Shown: piece by piece, positions 2,175-45,345 of the stretch | Numbering within the stretch: position 1 is the stretch's first letter | Layout: the number at the start of each line of letters is the position of its first letter | Assembly (NCBI GenBank): GCA_017476665.1 | Contig: JAFUZJ010000043.1 | Coordinates: 1 to 62,287, forward strand | Direction: 5' to 3' | From: Lachnospiraceae bacterium | Lineage (GTDB): Bacteria > Bacillota > Clostridia > Lachnospirales > Lachnospiraceae | DNA: 62,287 nucleotides | Position numbers and translations under genes: made by a program | Notes under the pieces: model-generated | Databases searched by the model: none | What the model was told of the DNA's origin: nothing | Seen by the model: the letters and a program-made list of their open reading frames with translations, nothing else

Positions 2175-3290
2175 CTAAAATCTTGTATATTGTTCCACCG
2201 CAATATCTTCAAAGGTAGTCGGCTTCTCATAAAGCGCCATCGCCAGATCCAGGAGTCCGAAAAGCATCACGGCTCCCGTGCCTTCCCCCAATGCCAGATT
2301 TCCCTGGATCACAGGCTCCATACCAAGTGCCTGAAACACCACATCCGCCGCAGGTTCCTTACTCTTATGCGAGGGGATCATGTAGGCCTTCACGCCGGGC
2401 ACCAAGGCCTTTGCGGCGAGCGCTGCCACTGCTGAGATCACGCCGTCGATCACCACCGGCAGATGCACCAGTGCGCCCCCAATGAATACTCCCACCATCG
2501 CTGCAATGTCCAGACCGCCCACACAAGACAAGATATACAATGCCCTATGTTCCGCACTGCCTTTATGATCTTCCCTTTGTGCAGATGATACAAGCCCATA
2601 CTTCTCCAGCGCCTCTTGCACTACAGTCCGCTTGCGCACAAGTCCTGCATCCGAAAGCCCGGCTCCCCGCCCTACGATTTCGCCTGCCGAAGCACCCGCC
2701 AGCGCTGCCGTCACCGCCGCAGCCGTGGTGGTATTGCCGATTCCCATTTCCCCGGTAGCCAGGATCTGATAACCCTTTTCCTTACACTCTGCCGCCAGAT
2801 GAATCCCCACGCGGATTGCCGCAAGCACCTGCTCCTTAGACATAGCCGGCTCTTTTCGGAAATTTCTGGTGCCGGGCATCACTTTTCGGTTCACAACCCC
2901 GGCAATCGTCTCTGTATCTGCAATCCCCACATCCACCGGGATCACATCCGCACCGACCACCTTTGCCATTTTACAGACATTGGAAGTGCCTCTGCCCATG
3001 GACTCCGCCACCTGCCTGGTCACCTCCTGCCCGCACTGGCTGACGCTTTCCTCCACGATCCCATTGTCCGCGCACATGACCAGAACCGCTTTTTTCCGGA
3101 TATCGATATCTGCGGTTCCCGTAATCGCGCCGATCTGGGCCAGATACGTTTCAAATTTTCCCAAGCTGTCCAAAGGCTTCGCGATCTGATCGATCCGTGT
3201 CTGCACCTGCTCCCGGATTGTCTCATCCGGCGCGTCTATCTGTATTTCCAATAATTCTCTCTCTTCTGCTGCCATCCCTGCAACCTTCAT
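2175..3290 (-). CDS. cobT: Nicotinate-nucleotide-dimethylbenzimidazole phosphoribosyltransferase
   Basis: 371 residues, normal CobT length. The enzyme transfers phosphoribose from nicotinate mononucleotide to a lower-ligand base such as 5,6-dimethylbenzimidazole, giving the alpha-riboside phosphate used in cobalamin assembly. Family signatures visible are [10 protein letters not shown] near the N-terminus, [11 protein letters not shown], the glycine-rich substrate loop [13 protein letters not shown], and the C-terminal [10 protein letters not shown] carrying the catalytic glutamate. The start codon overlaps the cobQ stop as ATGA, which points to translational coupling and co-regulation with cobQ. 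Which lower-ligand base it prefers cannot be read from sequence. Confidence 0.95.
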
Positions 3291-10137: not shown

Positions 10138-11268
10138 TTATGATTGAAGCACCATATTATGGTTACCTCTTGCATATTCCAACAATTTCCGGTTTGCCTG
10201 ATTCTGCGTCCCAAACCGATCCACCGCACAGATCACCCGCTCACAGCTGTTCATCACCGCAAGAGCCTCCTGTACCGTAACCTCATCTATCTCGGCAAAC
10301 GCCTCCACACAGACCACCCGCGCCGCCAGTTTCTCGGCCACAGGATAATCCATATCATTCTTCTGCAAAATTCCCGTGGCAAACGGAATCCCCTGTCTCT
10401 GCAATCTACGGTAAACAGGTGCGCCGCTGCCGCCCCCGGCGATCACAAAAACTTCCGGTTCCCCTTCTATTCGCGGCAGTTCCGGTCTGCATTCCGCTCC
10501 GTCATAAGAACCGGTTCGCAGATCATACAGCTCTGCAATATAATTTCCCTGAAAGACCTCCTCCACCGTGCCCAATCGCTCTACTTTTCCGCCCTTAATG
10601 CACATGATTTTGTCAGATACACGCTGCGCCAGCTCCAGCTCATGCAGGGACATAATCACCGTCAGCTTTTCTTCTCTGGCCATGCGTTGTAAAATAGTCA
10701 ATAATTCCAGCTTATACCGCATATCCAAATAGGAGGTTGGCTCGTCCAGGATCATCAGCTTTGGCTCCTGACAAAGCGCTCTGGCCAGCATGGTCAGCTG
10801 CTTCTGCCCGTCGCTGAGGGTTGTGAACTCCTGATCTGCTAACCCTGCAATTCCCACCAGTTCCATGGTCTGCCGCACCTTCTCCTTGTCCGCAGAACTT
10901 AAAATCCCCAGCGTCCCGGTGTACGGATACCGCCCCATGGAAACTACCTCCTCGCAGGTCATATAGTCCCCCTTTACCCGGTCCGTCAGCACCACCGCCA
11001 TATCCTGCGCACGTTTCGCCGCTGCCATCTCATGGATGCTGTTTTCCTCCAGACACACCACGCCGGAGAGGGGCTTAAGCTGCCCCATGATACTCTTCAG
11101 GATCGTGGATTTTCCTGCGCCGTTTCCGCCGATCAACGTCATAATCTCCCCCTGCGCCAGCGACACATCGACATCCTGTACCACCGGTACATTTTGGTAG
11201 CCTACAGTCAATTGTTTTATTCTGAAAAAATAGGTTTCCTCTTGCTGCATGTTTTGGCTAATCCTCAC
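10138..11268 (-). CDS. ABC transporter ATP-binding protein (FecE/BtuD type) with C-terminal extension
   Basis: 376 residues, about 120 longer than a typical FecE/BtuD ATPase. The ATPase core spans roughly residues 12-255: Walker A GGNGAGKST, Q-loop region VVLTDR, signature LSDGQKQ (normally LSGGQ or LSDGQ), Walker B KLMILDEPTS and H-loop MSLHELE. It energises the permease encoded at 11962-13020 for uptake of a metal chelate, haem or corrinoid. The extra C-terminal domain begins near PEVFVIAGGGSGAPVYRRL, looks like a Rossmann-type nucleotide or small-molecule binding fold, and ends with CERVICAVDRFGTQNQ. Start is GTG with GTGA overlap to the zinc-ribbon gene; ATG at 11250 is an alternative. 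The hairpin element and the zinc-ribbon gene separate it from its permease. Confidence 0.85.
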   Translation of the reverse strand: MRISQNMQQEETYFFRIKQLTVGYQNVPVVQDVDVSLAQGEIMTLIGGNGAGKSTILKSIMGQLKPLSGVVCLEENSIHEMAAAKRAQDMAVVLTDRVKGDYMTCEEVVSMGRYPYTGTLGILSSADKEKVRQTMELVGIAGLADQEFTTLSDGQKQLTMLARALCQEPKLMILDEPTSYLDMRYKLELLTILQRMAREEKLTVIMSLHELELAQRVSDKIMCIKGGKVERLGTVEEVFQGNYIAELYDLRTGSYDGAECRPELPRIEGEPEVFVIAGGGSGAPVYRRLQRQGIPFATGILQKNDMDYPVAEKLAARVVCVEAFAEIDEVTVQEALAVMNSCERVICAVDRFGTQNQANRKLLEYARGNHNMVLQS

Positions 11269-11639
11269 TTATCCTTCCGCAAAATTGTCCCTGTCTCGTC
11301 ACATCCACTTTTCTCATGCCTAATTCTTCCGGATTTCTTATGCTGATAGTTGTGCCTTCTCCAATCTTTCCTCATAAGTGCATCGTCCGGTGATTCTCTC
11401 TTGAACCAATAAACCTCATACGGCGTATCCGGCCTGTTTTTGCAAAAAGGACATTTTGCATCTCCGCAAACCGGCTCTTCCCACTCATTACAGTAGATAC
11501 ATGCCCATGCATCATATCTGTCAATCAATATACGCTCCATCTTACCGCATTTGGAACATGGGGTGTCTGAAAACATTCCAATCCGGCTCCATATCAATTT
11601 AGCCCGTCTTGATTTCAAATCGTTTTTTTTACGCTTCAT
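11265..11639 (-). CDS. Small zinc-ribbon protein, function unknown
   Basis: 124 residues from the ATG at 11639 (the frame opens at 11666 but the conserved part starts MKRKK). Six cysteines in three pairs, CSKCGKMERI, ACIYCNEWEEP and CPFCKNRPDTPYEVYW, together with Cys in VCGDAKC, suggest one or two structural zinc sites. Flanks are very basic (KSRRAKLIW; RRHNYQHKKSGRIRH), so nucleic-acid or protein contact is possible. I recall similar hypothetical proteins in Lachnospiraceae but no known function. It sits between permease and ATPase genes of one transporter and overlaps the ATPase start by four bases. Confidence 0.6.
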   Translation of the reverse strand: MKRKKNDLKSRRAKLIWSRIGMFSDTPCSKCGKMERILIDRYDAWACIYCNEWEEPVCGDAKCPFCKNRPDTPYEVYWFKRESPDDALMRKDWRRHNYQHKKSGRIRHEKSGCDETGTILRKDK

Positions 11640-11719
11640 CCTATATCCCCGTTCAAGTAATTGCAAAACTCATTTTTAACGGTATCGCGTTATACATATT
11701 GTACACCACCAGCATAGGC

Positions 11720-11933
11720 AGAAGCATAGTTCTCTCTGGCACGTCAGTGGAGGATTCTGATTTTTCTTAGATGCCGGTTCAGTACCCTAGGGTAAAACAC
11801 GCAAGGATGCGTGTTTTAGGCACTATCGGGCAAGGATGCCCGTTAGTGCCGACCCGTAACTTTAGCATAATCCATATCCGGCAGCTTAGAAAAATTGGAA
11901 TCTGTAACGAGTGCCAGAGAGAACTATGTTCTC
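11720..11933. mobile_element. MITE-like inverted-repeat element with two AAGGAT-loop hairpins
   Basis: Perfect 18-bp terminal inverted repeats CATAGTTCTCTCTGGCAC (11725-11742) and its complement (11911-11928). Inside them lies a second, imperfect inverted pair (about 11753-11776 and 11880-11903, TTTTTCTTAGATGCCGG against the complement TTTTTCTAAGCTGCCGG). At the core are two hairpins: AAAACACGC / GCGTGTTTT (11794-11817) and a 7+5-bp stem with a T-T mismatch (11819-11850). Both close on the identical loop AAGGAT (11803-11808 and 11832-11837). GGGT/ACCC around them could close a multi-branched, cloverleaf-like fold. No transposase ORF is inside. It lies in the gap between permease and zinc-ribbon genes, so either a non-autonomous transposon or a structured regulatory RNA. 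Confidence 0.7.
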
Positions 11934-11961
11934 CTGACCATGCGCCCTCGTTGCTACAATT

Positions 11962-13020
11962 CTATCCAGTCTTCCTTCTGTGCATCATCACCCAGATCAC
12001 CACCGGCGCACCGAATAATGCCGTCACACTGCTGATAGAAAGCTCCACCGGCGCAAACACAGTCCGTGCGATCAAATCACTGAACAGACAAAATACCGCT
12101 CCGCCCAGAAAGCAGGCCGGTATCATGATAAGCGGTTTTGTCGTCCGGAACATGCTTCGGATCAGCTGTGGCACCGCAATTCCTACAAAAGAGATAGGTC
12201 CCGCAAATGCCGTGACCGCTGCTGCCAGCAGGCTTGCCAAAAACACCAACGCGGTCCGAAACAGCCGCAGGTTCACCCCGATACTCGCTGCATACGCCTC
12301 TCCCAACTGACATGCTGCGATCGGCTTTGACAAAAAAATAATACAGATAAAAGTTATGAGCACCAACACCGCAATCACCTTTACATTGTCCCAGGTAATC
12401 CCGGAGAAACTCCCCAATGACCAATTGTGCAGGTTCACAATATTGGAATCATCCGCAAACGTCACCACAAAATCCGTGACCGCCGAACAGATATACCCGA
12501 TCATCACGCCGCTGACGATCAGCATGGCGGATTGGTACACCTTTCTCGCAAAAAGCAGCACAAAGCCCATAGAAAATAACGCGCCGACAAATGCCGCCGC
12601 GATCAATAAAAAGGAACTGCTCCTCAGTCCCATCTGTAATATTCCCACCAAAGTCAATGCCACCGCCAGTTTTGCGCCCGACGAAATGCCCAGCACAAAA
12701 GGTCCCGCAATGGGATTCTGGAAAAAGGTCTGCAAAAGATACCCGGAAAGCGCCAGTGCTCCACCCAACAGCGCCGCCGCGATCGTCCGGGGCAGTCTGA
12801 TCTGCCAGATGATCGCGTAAGAAGCCTCCGAAATCGCGATGCCGCCTTCCGGCAACGATCCGTTTCCTCCCACACCTCTCAAGATCTGCCACACCTGTTT
12901 TACCGGGATCTCCACACTTCCCATGCAGAGATTTGCCGCAAACAGCACGACCACCGCCACAAGCAATCCCATAAATCCCAGCACTCTGCAGCTGCCTTTT
13001 TTTTCTGTATGTCTTTCCAT
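11962..13020 (-). CDS. FecCD/BtuC-family ABC transporter permease
   Basis: About 352 residues, normal for the FecCD family of metal-chelate, haem and cobalamin importers. Around ten hydrophobic segments are visible, beginning GFMGLLVAVVVLFAANLCMG. Conserved blocks include RLPRTIAAALLGGALALSGY, LQTFFQNPIAGPFVLGISSG, and GPISFVGIAVPQLIRSMF near the coupling loop. The frame opens at a GTG (13053) overlapping the previous stop as GTGA. ATGs at 13026 and 13020 also fit; 13020 has the best spacing from AAGGA, so it is used here, while translational coupling from the GTG remains possible. Partner binding protein is at 13701, ATPase at 10138. Confidence 0.9.
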   Translation of the reverse strand: MERHTEKKGSCRVLGFMGLLVAVVVLFAANLCMGSVEIPVKQVWQILRGVGGNGSLPEGGIAISEASYAIIWQIRLPRTIAAALLGGALALSGYLLQTFFQNPIAGPFVLGISSGAKLAVALTLVGILQMGLRSSSFLLIAAAFVGALFSMGFVLLFARKVYQSAMLIVSGVMIGYICSAVTDFVVTFADDSNIVNLHNWSLGSFSGITWDNVKVIAVLVLITFICIIFLSKPIAACQLGEAYAASIGVNLRLFRTALVFLASLLAAAVTAFAGPISFVGIAVPQLIRSMFRTTKPLIMIPACFLGGAVFCLFSDLIARTVFAPVELSISSVTALFGAPVVIWVMMHRRKTG

Positions 13021-13049
13021 TTTCATTATCCTTCCGTCTGAAGACGAGG

Positions 13050-13652
13050 TCACGCAAAATCATCTATGTCGTCTTTAATGATTTCTTTTCCCTCTTCCTC
13101 GTCTGAAAGTTCTGCTGTCATTGCATATTCGTGCTCACCGGAATCCGGGTCAAATTTAGAGAGGTAACATAAGCTCATGGTTCCCAGTTCTCCCGCCTTC
13201 TGCCCGTTTTTCTCCAGATAATAGCTGATCTGCCAGAAATAGTCCTTGAATTTCGGTTCGATCACAAAACGGCAATCCGCTCCGAACTTACTCTGTACTA
13301 ACGTCTGCCCATATTCCATATATTGAGCCATCACCAGATCAATCCTCTCTTTTACCGCCTCAAAAGAATTGGTATAGGTCAAAGAGCCCAATTTTGAATA
13401 TTGATATGACACATTGCTCCGATAGGCAAACTTGATCACCGGTACGGAATCCTCCGTCATATCCCCGCGGGTAAAATGAATTTTCTCTCCCGTCTTCATA
13501 TGAAAATCATACGTTTCCTCCGAAGTCATCCCGTCTCCGCAATCTATATAAATGCTTGCCAGCTGCTCCGCCATGATCGTTTTCTCCGAAAACAGCGACT
13601 TGCGGACAAACCGATCCTGTTTCATATGTATCGTCTTACGCTTTTCCGCCAT
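13050..13652 (-). CDS. Unknown soluble protein encoded inside the transporter operon
   Basis: 200 residues, not recognised. No signal peptide or membrane segment. The N-terminus is basic (AEKRKTIHMKQDRFVRKSLF). The middle contains YIDCGDGMTSEETYDFHMKT and YSKLGSLTYTNSFEAVKERI, and the C-terminus is strongly acidic (ELSDEEEGKEIIKDDIDDFA). It lies between the binding-protein and permease genes, with a GTGA overlap to the permease frame, which argues that it belongs to the transport unit rather than being a passenger. A role in handling the imported ligand or in regulation is possible, but nothing in the sequence shows which. Confidence 0.65.
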   Translation of the reverse strand: MAEKRKTIHMKQDRFVRKSLFSEKTIMAEQLASIYIDCGDGMTSEETYDFHMKTGEKIHFTRGDMTEDSVPVIKFAYRSNVSYQYSKLGSLTYTNSFEAVKERIDLVMAQYMEYGQTLVQSKFGADCRFVIEPKFKDYFWQISYYLEKNGQKAGELGTMSLCYLSKFDPDSGEHEYAMTAELSDEEEGKEIIKDDIDDFA

Positions 13653-44559: not shown

Positions 44560-44603
44560 AAAAAATTTTCTGCAATACATATTCCGAAAGATTATATCAG
44601 AAT

Positions 44604-44654
44604 AAACGAGAGAAGCGCAGGCAACCGCCGCTTCCGACTGCCCACGCTTCTCTC
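44604..44654 (-). terminator. Terminator of hsp20
   Basis: Perfect 10-bp stem GAGAGAAGCG (44608-44617) and CGCTTCTCTC (44645-44654) with inner pairing, followed on the minus strand by GTTTATTCTG. It ends the hsp20 transcript, which stops at 44686. Confidence 0.7.
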
Positions 44655-44685
44655 ATTTATTCCTCTATCACTTTATTTTTGAATG

Positions 44686-45174: not shown

Positions 45175-45253
45175 AACAACTACCTCCTTTTATATGAATC
45201 AATTATTTGCTTTGTTCTCAGGAAATATTCCTTTATTTCCTCCTGATAATTAT

Positions 45254-45282
45254 GTTATAGCACTTTTATTAGCACTCGTCAA
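45254..45282 (-). promoter_or_regulatory. Promoter of hsp20
   Basis: On the minus strand TTGACG (45282-45277), 17-base spacer, TATAAC (45259-45254). The -35 lies inside the CIRCE spacer and left arm, so HrcA binding would block RNA polymerase. Confidence 0.8.
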
Positions 45283-45295
45283 TAGTGAGTGCTAA
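45269..45295. promoter_or_regulatory. CIRCE operator (HrcA binding site)
   Basis: Exact consensus TTAGCACTC-N9-GAGTGCTAA (arms 45269-45277 and 45287-45295, spacer GTCAATAGT). Established binding site of the heat-shock repressor HrcA. Located about 95 bp before hsp20. Confidence 0.97.
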
Positions 45296-45345
45296 TAAAA
45301 TTTTATTAACAAAATATTATGCATTTATAAATTGTCAGAACTTTC

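Follow-up and report, generated by a model that had tools for sequence, protein, structure and literature searches.

The closest described counterpart of the element analysed here is TwoAYGGAY, which Rfam lists as family RF01731 and types as Cis-reg. The row for TwoAYGGAY in a table of Weinberg 2010 grades it as probably RNA, probably not cis-regulatory and probably not a riboswitch (PMC2864571), and in 2014 binding of the family by CsrA was proposed in a passage that builds on motif matches (PMC4333381). In the passages that name the family, a preprint states that stability differs between its two loops (PMC11661157), and two further papers address the improvement of its structure (PMC11701678, PMC7657543). 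In the papers listed by a full-text search, whose coverage leaves out most subscription journals, none of the passages naming TwoAYGGAY treats the family as a mobile or DNA element, and among the matches listed for the literature on MITEs, hairpins and single-stranded DNA, no title or abstract opening describes it in this way.

Here we analysed a copy from a Lachnospiraceae bacterium, carried on the 62,287-nt contig JAFUZJ010000043.1 (GCA_017476665.1), which as a whole is called the window. Our main reading, to which we assign a probability of about 0.7, is that the window copy belongs, as a solitary copy, to a family of mobile but non-autonomous DNA elements in Lachnospiraceae, the core of which has been catalogued as TwoAYGGAY; the RF01731 entry would then probably describe a mobile DNA element. 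As far as our searches went, two things are new: the evidence that RF01731 is a mobile DNA hairpin and not a cis-regulatory RNA, and the observation that it is nearly confined to hosts with flagella. If the reading is true, a 16-year-old orphan RNA family would be transferred to mobile DNA elements.

Anatomy and identity of the window element

The window element is a long palindrome with two apical hairpins, placed within a transporter operon. Its features and those of the neighbouring genes are listed below.

11715..11936, no strand: entire palindromic element, arms and apex (DNA and RNA folds of both strands, inverted repeats)
11725..11742, + strand: left outer inverted repeat, outside the Rfam model (18/18 complementary to 11911-11928)
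11911..11928, + strand: right outer inverted repeat, outside the Rfam model (inverted-repeat pairing)
11745..11910, + strand: match to RF01731, which defines the AYGGAY strand (covariance model)
11753..11777, + strand: left inner arm with a TTTTCTTA stretch, frequent across the family
11878..11902, + strand: right inner arm with a TTAGAAAA stretch, frequent across the family
11793..11818, + strand: apical hairpin 1 (loop AAGGAT at 11803-11808, context CAAGGATG)
11819..11850, + strand: apical hairpin 2 (loop AAGGAT at 11832-11837, 29 nt past loop 1; one mismatch in the hairpin)
11962..13053, - strand: FecCD-type permease, upstream of the element in the operon (PF01032, E=1.3e-80)
11265..11666, - strand: 133-aa cysteine-rich ORF with CxxC motifs, between the element and the ATPase (no Pfam match at E <= 0.001)
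10138..11268, - strand: ABC ATPase, downstream of the element (PF00005, E=4.3e-31)

The anatomy agrees with an earlier, sequence-only reading of this DNA, which had claimed perfect 18-bp terminal inverted repeats, a second, imperfect inverted pair inside them and twin central hairpins with AAGGAT loops. The inner arms are 84% complementary, and the two hairpins are bracketed by GGGT (11790-11793) and ACCC (11852-11855). The palindrome reaches past the earlier coordinates, to ~11715-11936, and includes two one-base bulges within a length of about 222 bp. Folding of both strands, which had been suggested as a check, gave structures far better than those of dinucleotide shuffles both as RNA (11715-11940; z = -10.7 on the + strand and -12.9 on the - strand) and as DNA (11715-11936; z = -13.3 and -12.3 for the two strands), and none of 200 shuffles equalled the native fold. 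The element was also correctly said to hold no ORF of its own: the sole ORF of at least 80 aa that crosses it (11771-12310, + strand) continues antisense through the permease gene. The window copy thereby combines 18/18-bp inverted repeats, a length of about 222 bp and the absence of coding sequence, as is characteristic of MITEs. With up to 3 mismatches allowed, the outer 18-mer has no further occurrence within the window. Two more long imperfect hairpins, with arms of 29 and 24 nt, lie at 45249-45315 and 44600-44662.

The claim that the element is undescribed does not survive, as it is a member of RF01731. The covariance model is matched from end to end (model positions 1-168) and scores 92.1 bits, its cut-off being 43; RF01731 is the only Rfam family that scores above its own cut-off anywhere in the window. 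Compared with the AYGGAY consensus, the AAGGAT loops of the window retain GGA and the flanking C..G, and have A instead of Y at the second base.

Copies, unit ends and the interrupted operon

The genome of the window contains 1 RF01731 copy (all 90 first-look candidates were scored). A survey of 146 genomes returned matches in 25, own genome included, and above the cut-off in 24 of these; 14 of the 25 positive genomes have from at least 6 to at least 17 copies and 11, again including the own genome, a single one, these numbers being lower bounds because at most 17 candidates were scored per genome. At least 12-17 copies each are present in eleven other genomes of the genus and at least 17 each in three relatives, and the distribution within the genus is patchy, with RF01731 in 24 of 91 genomes. 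Lachnospiraceae-wide, 65 of 397 genomes from 334 genera have matches, with at most 6 candidates scored per genome, so that copy numbers are again lower bounds. A degenerate core pattern identified 45 stretches in GTDB genomes and had no match among viral contigs; 44 of the stretches are titled Acetatifactor sp. or uncultured Lachnospiraceae (two assemblies), the remaining 1 Muribaculum sp. The supposition that no second copy exists thus does not hold, as copies were found across many relatives.

Two further loci are recorded here as separate observations. In another family of the same order, locus L025 (genome G123) matched RF01731 only weakly (best E 2.8e-5; the genome has 6 matches); it carries a different long AT-rich palindrome and may be a distant relative or a chance hairpin match. 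Locus L119 (genome G073, contig C50) contains identical copies of a polysaccharide-deacetylase-like gene (ORFs 1276-1986 and 2433-3143) at a spacing of 1157 bp, together with three TwoAYGGAY matches at the same spacing, a pattern attributable to recombination amplification or an assembly effect. This array had been considered as a transposase candidate and was rejected, as it instead appears to consist of the duplicated polysaccharide-deacetylase-like gene plus the element.

The complete genome G006 contains at least 21 copies (17 fetched and 4 units found via their ends). Among the 17 fetched copies, twelve have a common unit of ~480-530 bp (89-99% identity), a second group comprises four, and one has only ~206 bp in common. 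When copies were compared in pairs with 2-kb flanks, homology stopped abruptly, and most pairs had no similarity past the unit. Both ends were recognised in 14 units (10 fetched copies and the 4 end-found ones) of 481-694 bp, each containing the core between matching inverted ends that read A(A/C)TGGAAAGTTAG or A(A/C)TTGAGAGTTAG, with minor variants, plus their complements. TA adjoins the left end in 13 of the 14 units and the right end in 13 of 14, and both exceptions accommodate TA after a one-base shift of the end; since the units were picked by their end letters, the match of the ends is by construction, which does not apply to the TA outside. TA at both ends is the footprint expected of a TA-targeting transposase, and the TA-flanked inverted repeats of G006 suggest an enzyme of the IS630/Tc1-mariner type as a candidate.

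Conserved outer letters in other genomes, which resemble GTAACAGTTCAG in G048 and GTTACTTTTCACA in G061, differ from those of G006, so the RF01731 family has a common core with changing ends, and these differences count against the idea of one family with one enzyme. Three G006 loci (L158, L159 and L160) are hybrid units, which combine the left part of one group with the right end of the other and suggest recombination between element groups. Using the exact end pattern TGGAAAGTTAGT, no autonomous element was found in G006; three unpaired end matches considered as such turned out to be further short units beside ordinary genes, each with RF01731. No transposase was found for any element family. 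A RAYT/Y1 transposase was discarded as partner, as it shows no association in the genus, where 8 of the 24 carriers and 25 of the 67 genomes without the element have it, and a replication-strand bias was likewise dropped, as the strands of the 17 G006 copies look mixed along the contig.

The window copy splits the operon as the sequence-only reading had claimed, lying between the permease and the ATPase, both on the - strand; a periplasmic binding protein is encoded upstream. Searching the genus for the permease at E <= 1e-60 gave 32 matches in 30 of 96 genomes, own included, and 30 loci were fetched. The ATPase follows downstream of the permease in all 29 loci besides the window. No more than 141 bp separate the aligned portions of both genes in 26 of these loci, and the distance is 379-447 bp in the other three. 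None of these 29 orthologous operons has a two-GGA core or an RF01731 match at the cut-off, and none showed a match to the 133-aa ORF at E < 1e-8, which points to an interruption of the window operon by the element together with this ORF. The lineage that acquired the element may also have been the one to acquire the 133-aa ORF. The proposed search for empty sites thus yielded element-free orthologous operons but, among these 29, no base-exact empty site, because the fetched permeases are only 53-64% identical to that of the window. The permeases of G048 and G084 have similar scores, and these two genomes may be closely related to each other.

Between the two guesses of the sequence-only reading, a MITE and a structured RNA, the MITE is the better one. 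It is supported by dispersed copies at unrelated sites, sharp TA-flanked ends in G006 and the element-free orthologous operons, but the transposase it would need was not found. The solitary state of the window copy in its own genome, with no target-site duplication visible, also counts against the mobility reading.

Pairing pattern and orientation of the copies

A helix that is maintained as RNA tolerates G-U far better than A-C. Because an A-C mismatch on one strand is a G-U pair on the other, motifs can be oriented by comparing the two, as is done in the relevant passage of a published pipeline (PMC6429828). In an alignment of 59 of the 63 picked rows (L069, L081, L129 and L131 left out), compensatory double changes occur in 30 of the 34 predicted pairs, so that covariation is present and would pass for strong support in a screen for RNAs; a small number of genomes contribute many of the rows, and the row pick demanded A.GGA[CT] loops and at least 4 paired bases, so that the invariance of the loops is by construction. 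Among 2001 paired cells of this alignment, 14 are G-U and 14 A-C, so that G-U makes up 0.7%. Controls from the same bacterial family gave G-U to A-C ratios of 40:2 for the TPP riboswitch (12.5% G-U; 30 loci, 11 predicted pairs) and 416:16 for RNase P RNA (16%; 92 pairs, 29 of 30 loci, a fragment being dropped). Removal of the 8 innermost hairpin pairs, which are constrained by the selection of rows, changed the census of the element to 13:14. The arms outside the Rfam model behave in the same way: in AYGGAY-oriented two-GGA copies, 74 G-T and 78 A-C were counted in 82 of 84 copies, while an unoriented arm census of 270:245 mixes orientations and is uninformative on strand. A left arm scores on average 24.8 against its own right arm and 7.2 against that of another copy, its own being better in 82 of 84.

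G-U is thus no commoner than A-C, unlike in TPP and RNase P, which argues that complementarity is kept at the DNA level and that, as judged from sequence comparison, neither strand of the element has the pairing pattern of an RNA; the statistics do not bear out RF01731 acting as RNA. Either selection for a DNA hairpin or template-switch correction of palindromes could maintain such DNA-level complementarity, and the perfect arms could stem from the latter instead of selection. G-U would likewise be disfavoured if both strands had to form the hairpin as RNA; the loops of the element are asymmetric, however.

Orientation relative to genes was scored for 110 copies by a simple ORF rule, with copies lacking a clear core dropped and near-identical copies counted singly. 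Of the 60 copies whose two flanking genes are co-directional, 28 have the AYGGAY strand in sense and 32 in antisense orientation; the remainder lie between convergent (26) or divergent (17) genes or have a gene called on one side only (7). At the window copy, the AYGGAY strand is antisense to both neighbour genes. A structured RNA controlling both genes, the second of the earlier guesses, is weakened by this antisense position, by the random orientation of the copies and by the missing G-U excess. Oriented counts of G-U and A-C, set against known RNAs of the same bacteria, are a cheap test that is applicable to other orphan Rfam families.

We propose that the core of the element, two hairpins with GGA-type loops atop a long palindrome, belongs to a unit that would be moved as DNA by a transposase supplied in trans, in G006 possibly one of the IS630/Tc1-mariner type. 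The hairpin would arise as a cruciform or whenever the DNA is single-stranded, and its two loops may serve as a recognition feature or as the site for a CsrA-like protein. The window copy is a probable relic, which would at most be polar on the ATPase gene.

GGA loops, flagellated hosts and competing explanations

The CsrA-binding proposal of 2014 reportedly came from Gardner and colleagues. In two-GGA copies the loops read CANGGAYG, in part due to row selection, and are close to the E. coli CsrA consensus, given as RUACARGGAUGU in the passage concerned (PMC6692469). The window element contains CAAGGATG twice, which places GGA in hairpin loops with the A_GGA context expected of CsrA sites, and the two loops are spaced by 29 nt in 77 of 85 cores. 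Many copies have one GGA loop only, or a GGA-less CACGATG loop that recurs in several genomes; the class counts of this loop census are not relied on, as it was wrongly centred at a few loci close to the ends of contigs, certainly at L130 and L131.

Carriers of the element in Lachnospiraceae are almost exclusively flagellated. CsrA is present in 62 of the 65 carriers but in 148 of the 332 genomes that lack the element (Fisher one-sided 4e-16), and flagellin in 64 of 65 and 149 of 332, respectively (Fisher one-sided 1e-18); the own genome has 2 CsrA matches. The CsrA contrast within the genus is weak (22 of 24 carriers and 49 of 67 others, p = 0.05), and the two genus carriers without CsrA are genomes of 59% and 73% completeness. 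Three carriers in the family have no CsrA match; two of them were examined (the third is G463), and both retain the two GGA loops and have flagellin, so csrA may be missing from the assembly. CsrA and flagellin are nearly inseparable, with CsrA but no flagellin in 4 genomes and the reverse in 7, and the element may have another factor of motile cells as its partner. A RecA tree was built for 78 of the 80 genomes of a systematic sample, two being dropped because their RecA is split; on this tree, parsimony gave 18 changes for flagellin and 9 for the element, and 12 of 12 carriers have flagellin. Simulations of independent evolution left no carrier among flagellin-negative tips in 0.15% of cases under a threshold model with full phylogenetic signal and in 13 of 6791 under an Mk model of independent traits, so a link arising from ancestry alone is unlikely. 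The near-exclusive tie to flagellated, CsrA-bearing hosts therefore survives a tree-based check on the sample, and the question of the host factor is directly testable. A purely selfish DNA element does not explain this tie.

The host link would be accommodated by a CsrA-sequestering small RNA, whose GGA hairpins 29 nt apart would bind a CsrA dimer and thereby relieve or tune motility control. The resemblance of the loops to the E. coli consensus, their regular spacing, the frequency of CsrA and flagellin in carriers and the simulations on flagellin all speak for such an RNA, which we still consider doubtful: the AYGGAY strand shows no G-U excess, its orientation relative to genes is unbiased, no sigma-70-like promoter was found in 11200-12200, and many copies have just a single GGA loop or carry a CACGATG loop without GGA. 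Moreover, CsrA cannot be separated from flagellin, the genus-level contrast is weak, and two CsrA-less carriers retain both GGA loops, which a missing part of the assembly may explain. Both ideas could be merged if the palindrome were mobile DNA and its loops at the same time offered a site for CsrA; it would move and stay complementary as DNA while its transcribed copies titrate the motility regulator, so that it persists only in flagellated hosts and its copy number tunes CsrA; we regard this combination as unlikely.

The remaining explanations concern the window locus or the history of the repeats. A stable hairpin in the permease-ATPase transcript could alter decay or polarity and hence the protein ratio, and the element indeed lies between both genes and folds at -111 kcal/mol in the operon sense; a precedent exists in Clostridia, where internal terminators are reported to set ABC transporter stoichiometry (PMC9045158). 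Such local control is nevertheless improbable, as RF01731 is present in 0 of 29 orthologous operons, family copies adjoin other genes in every orientation and no terminator-like site was found at the element. Old immobile repeats, passed on by descent with arms that stay complementary only through template-switch palindrome correction, would account for the missing wobble and the good arms as well as for the single copies in 11 of 25 positive genomes. We judge this very improbable in view of the near-identical G006 copies with sharp ends and unrelated flanks, the patchy presence in the genus (24 of 91) and the orthologous operons (29) that lack the element. A non-autonomous mobile DNA element thus remains our preferred reading.

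Among known systems, MITEs of the IS630/Tc1-mariner type are similar in being short, with inverted repeats, TA flanks and many copies in G006 and with no ORF of its own in the window copy; they differ in that the ends of RF01731 vary by genome around a structured core common across genomes, and in that an autonomous partner was not found. REP/BIME/REPIN sequences with their RAYT are likewise palindromes located between genes, with a presumed action as single-stranded DNA in its folded form, but a Y1 transposase is present in only 8 of 24 genus carriers and several multi-copy genomes show none. The CsrA sponges CsrB and RsmZ share with the element GGA in hairpin loops and hosts that mostly have CsrA, whereas the element has two sites, palindromic arms, no wobble and random orientation, and neither promoter nor terminator was seen at the window copy. 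The closest likeness is to RF01731 itself, with a full-length covariance match above the cut-off and two near-identical GGA-loop hairpins on a long stem. The window loops depart from AYGGAY at the second base, and the family that Rfam types as Cis-reg is here a dispersed palindrome with DNA-type covariation and arms that extend well beyond the model.
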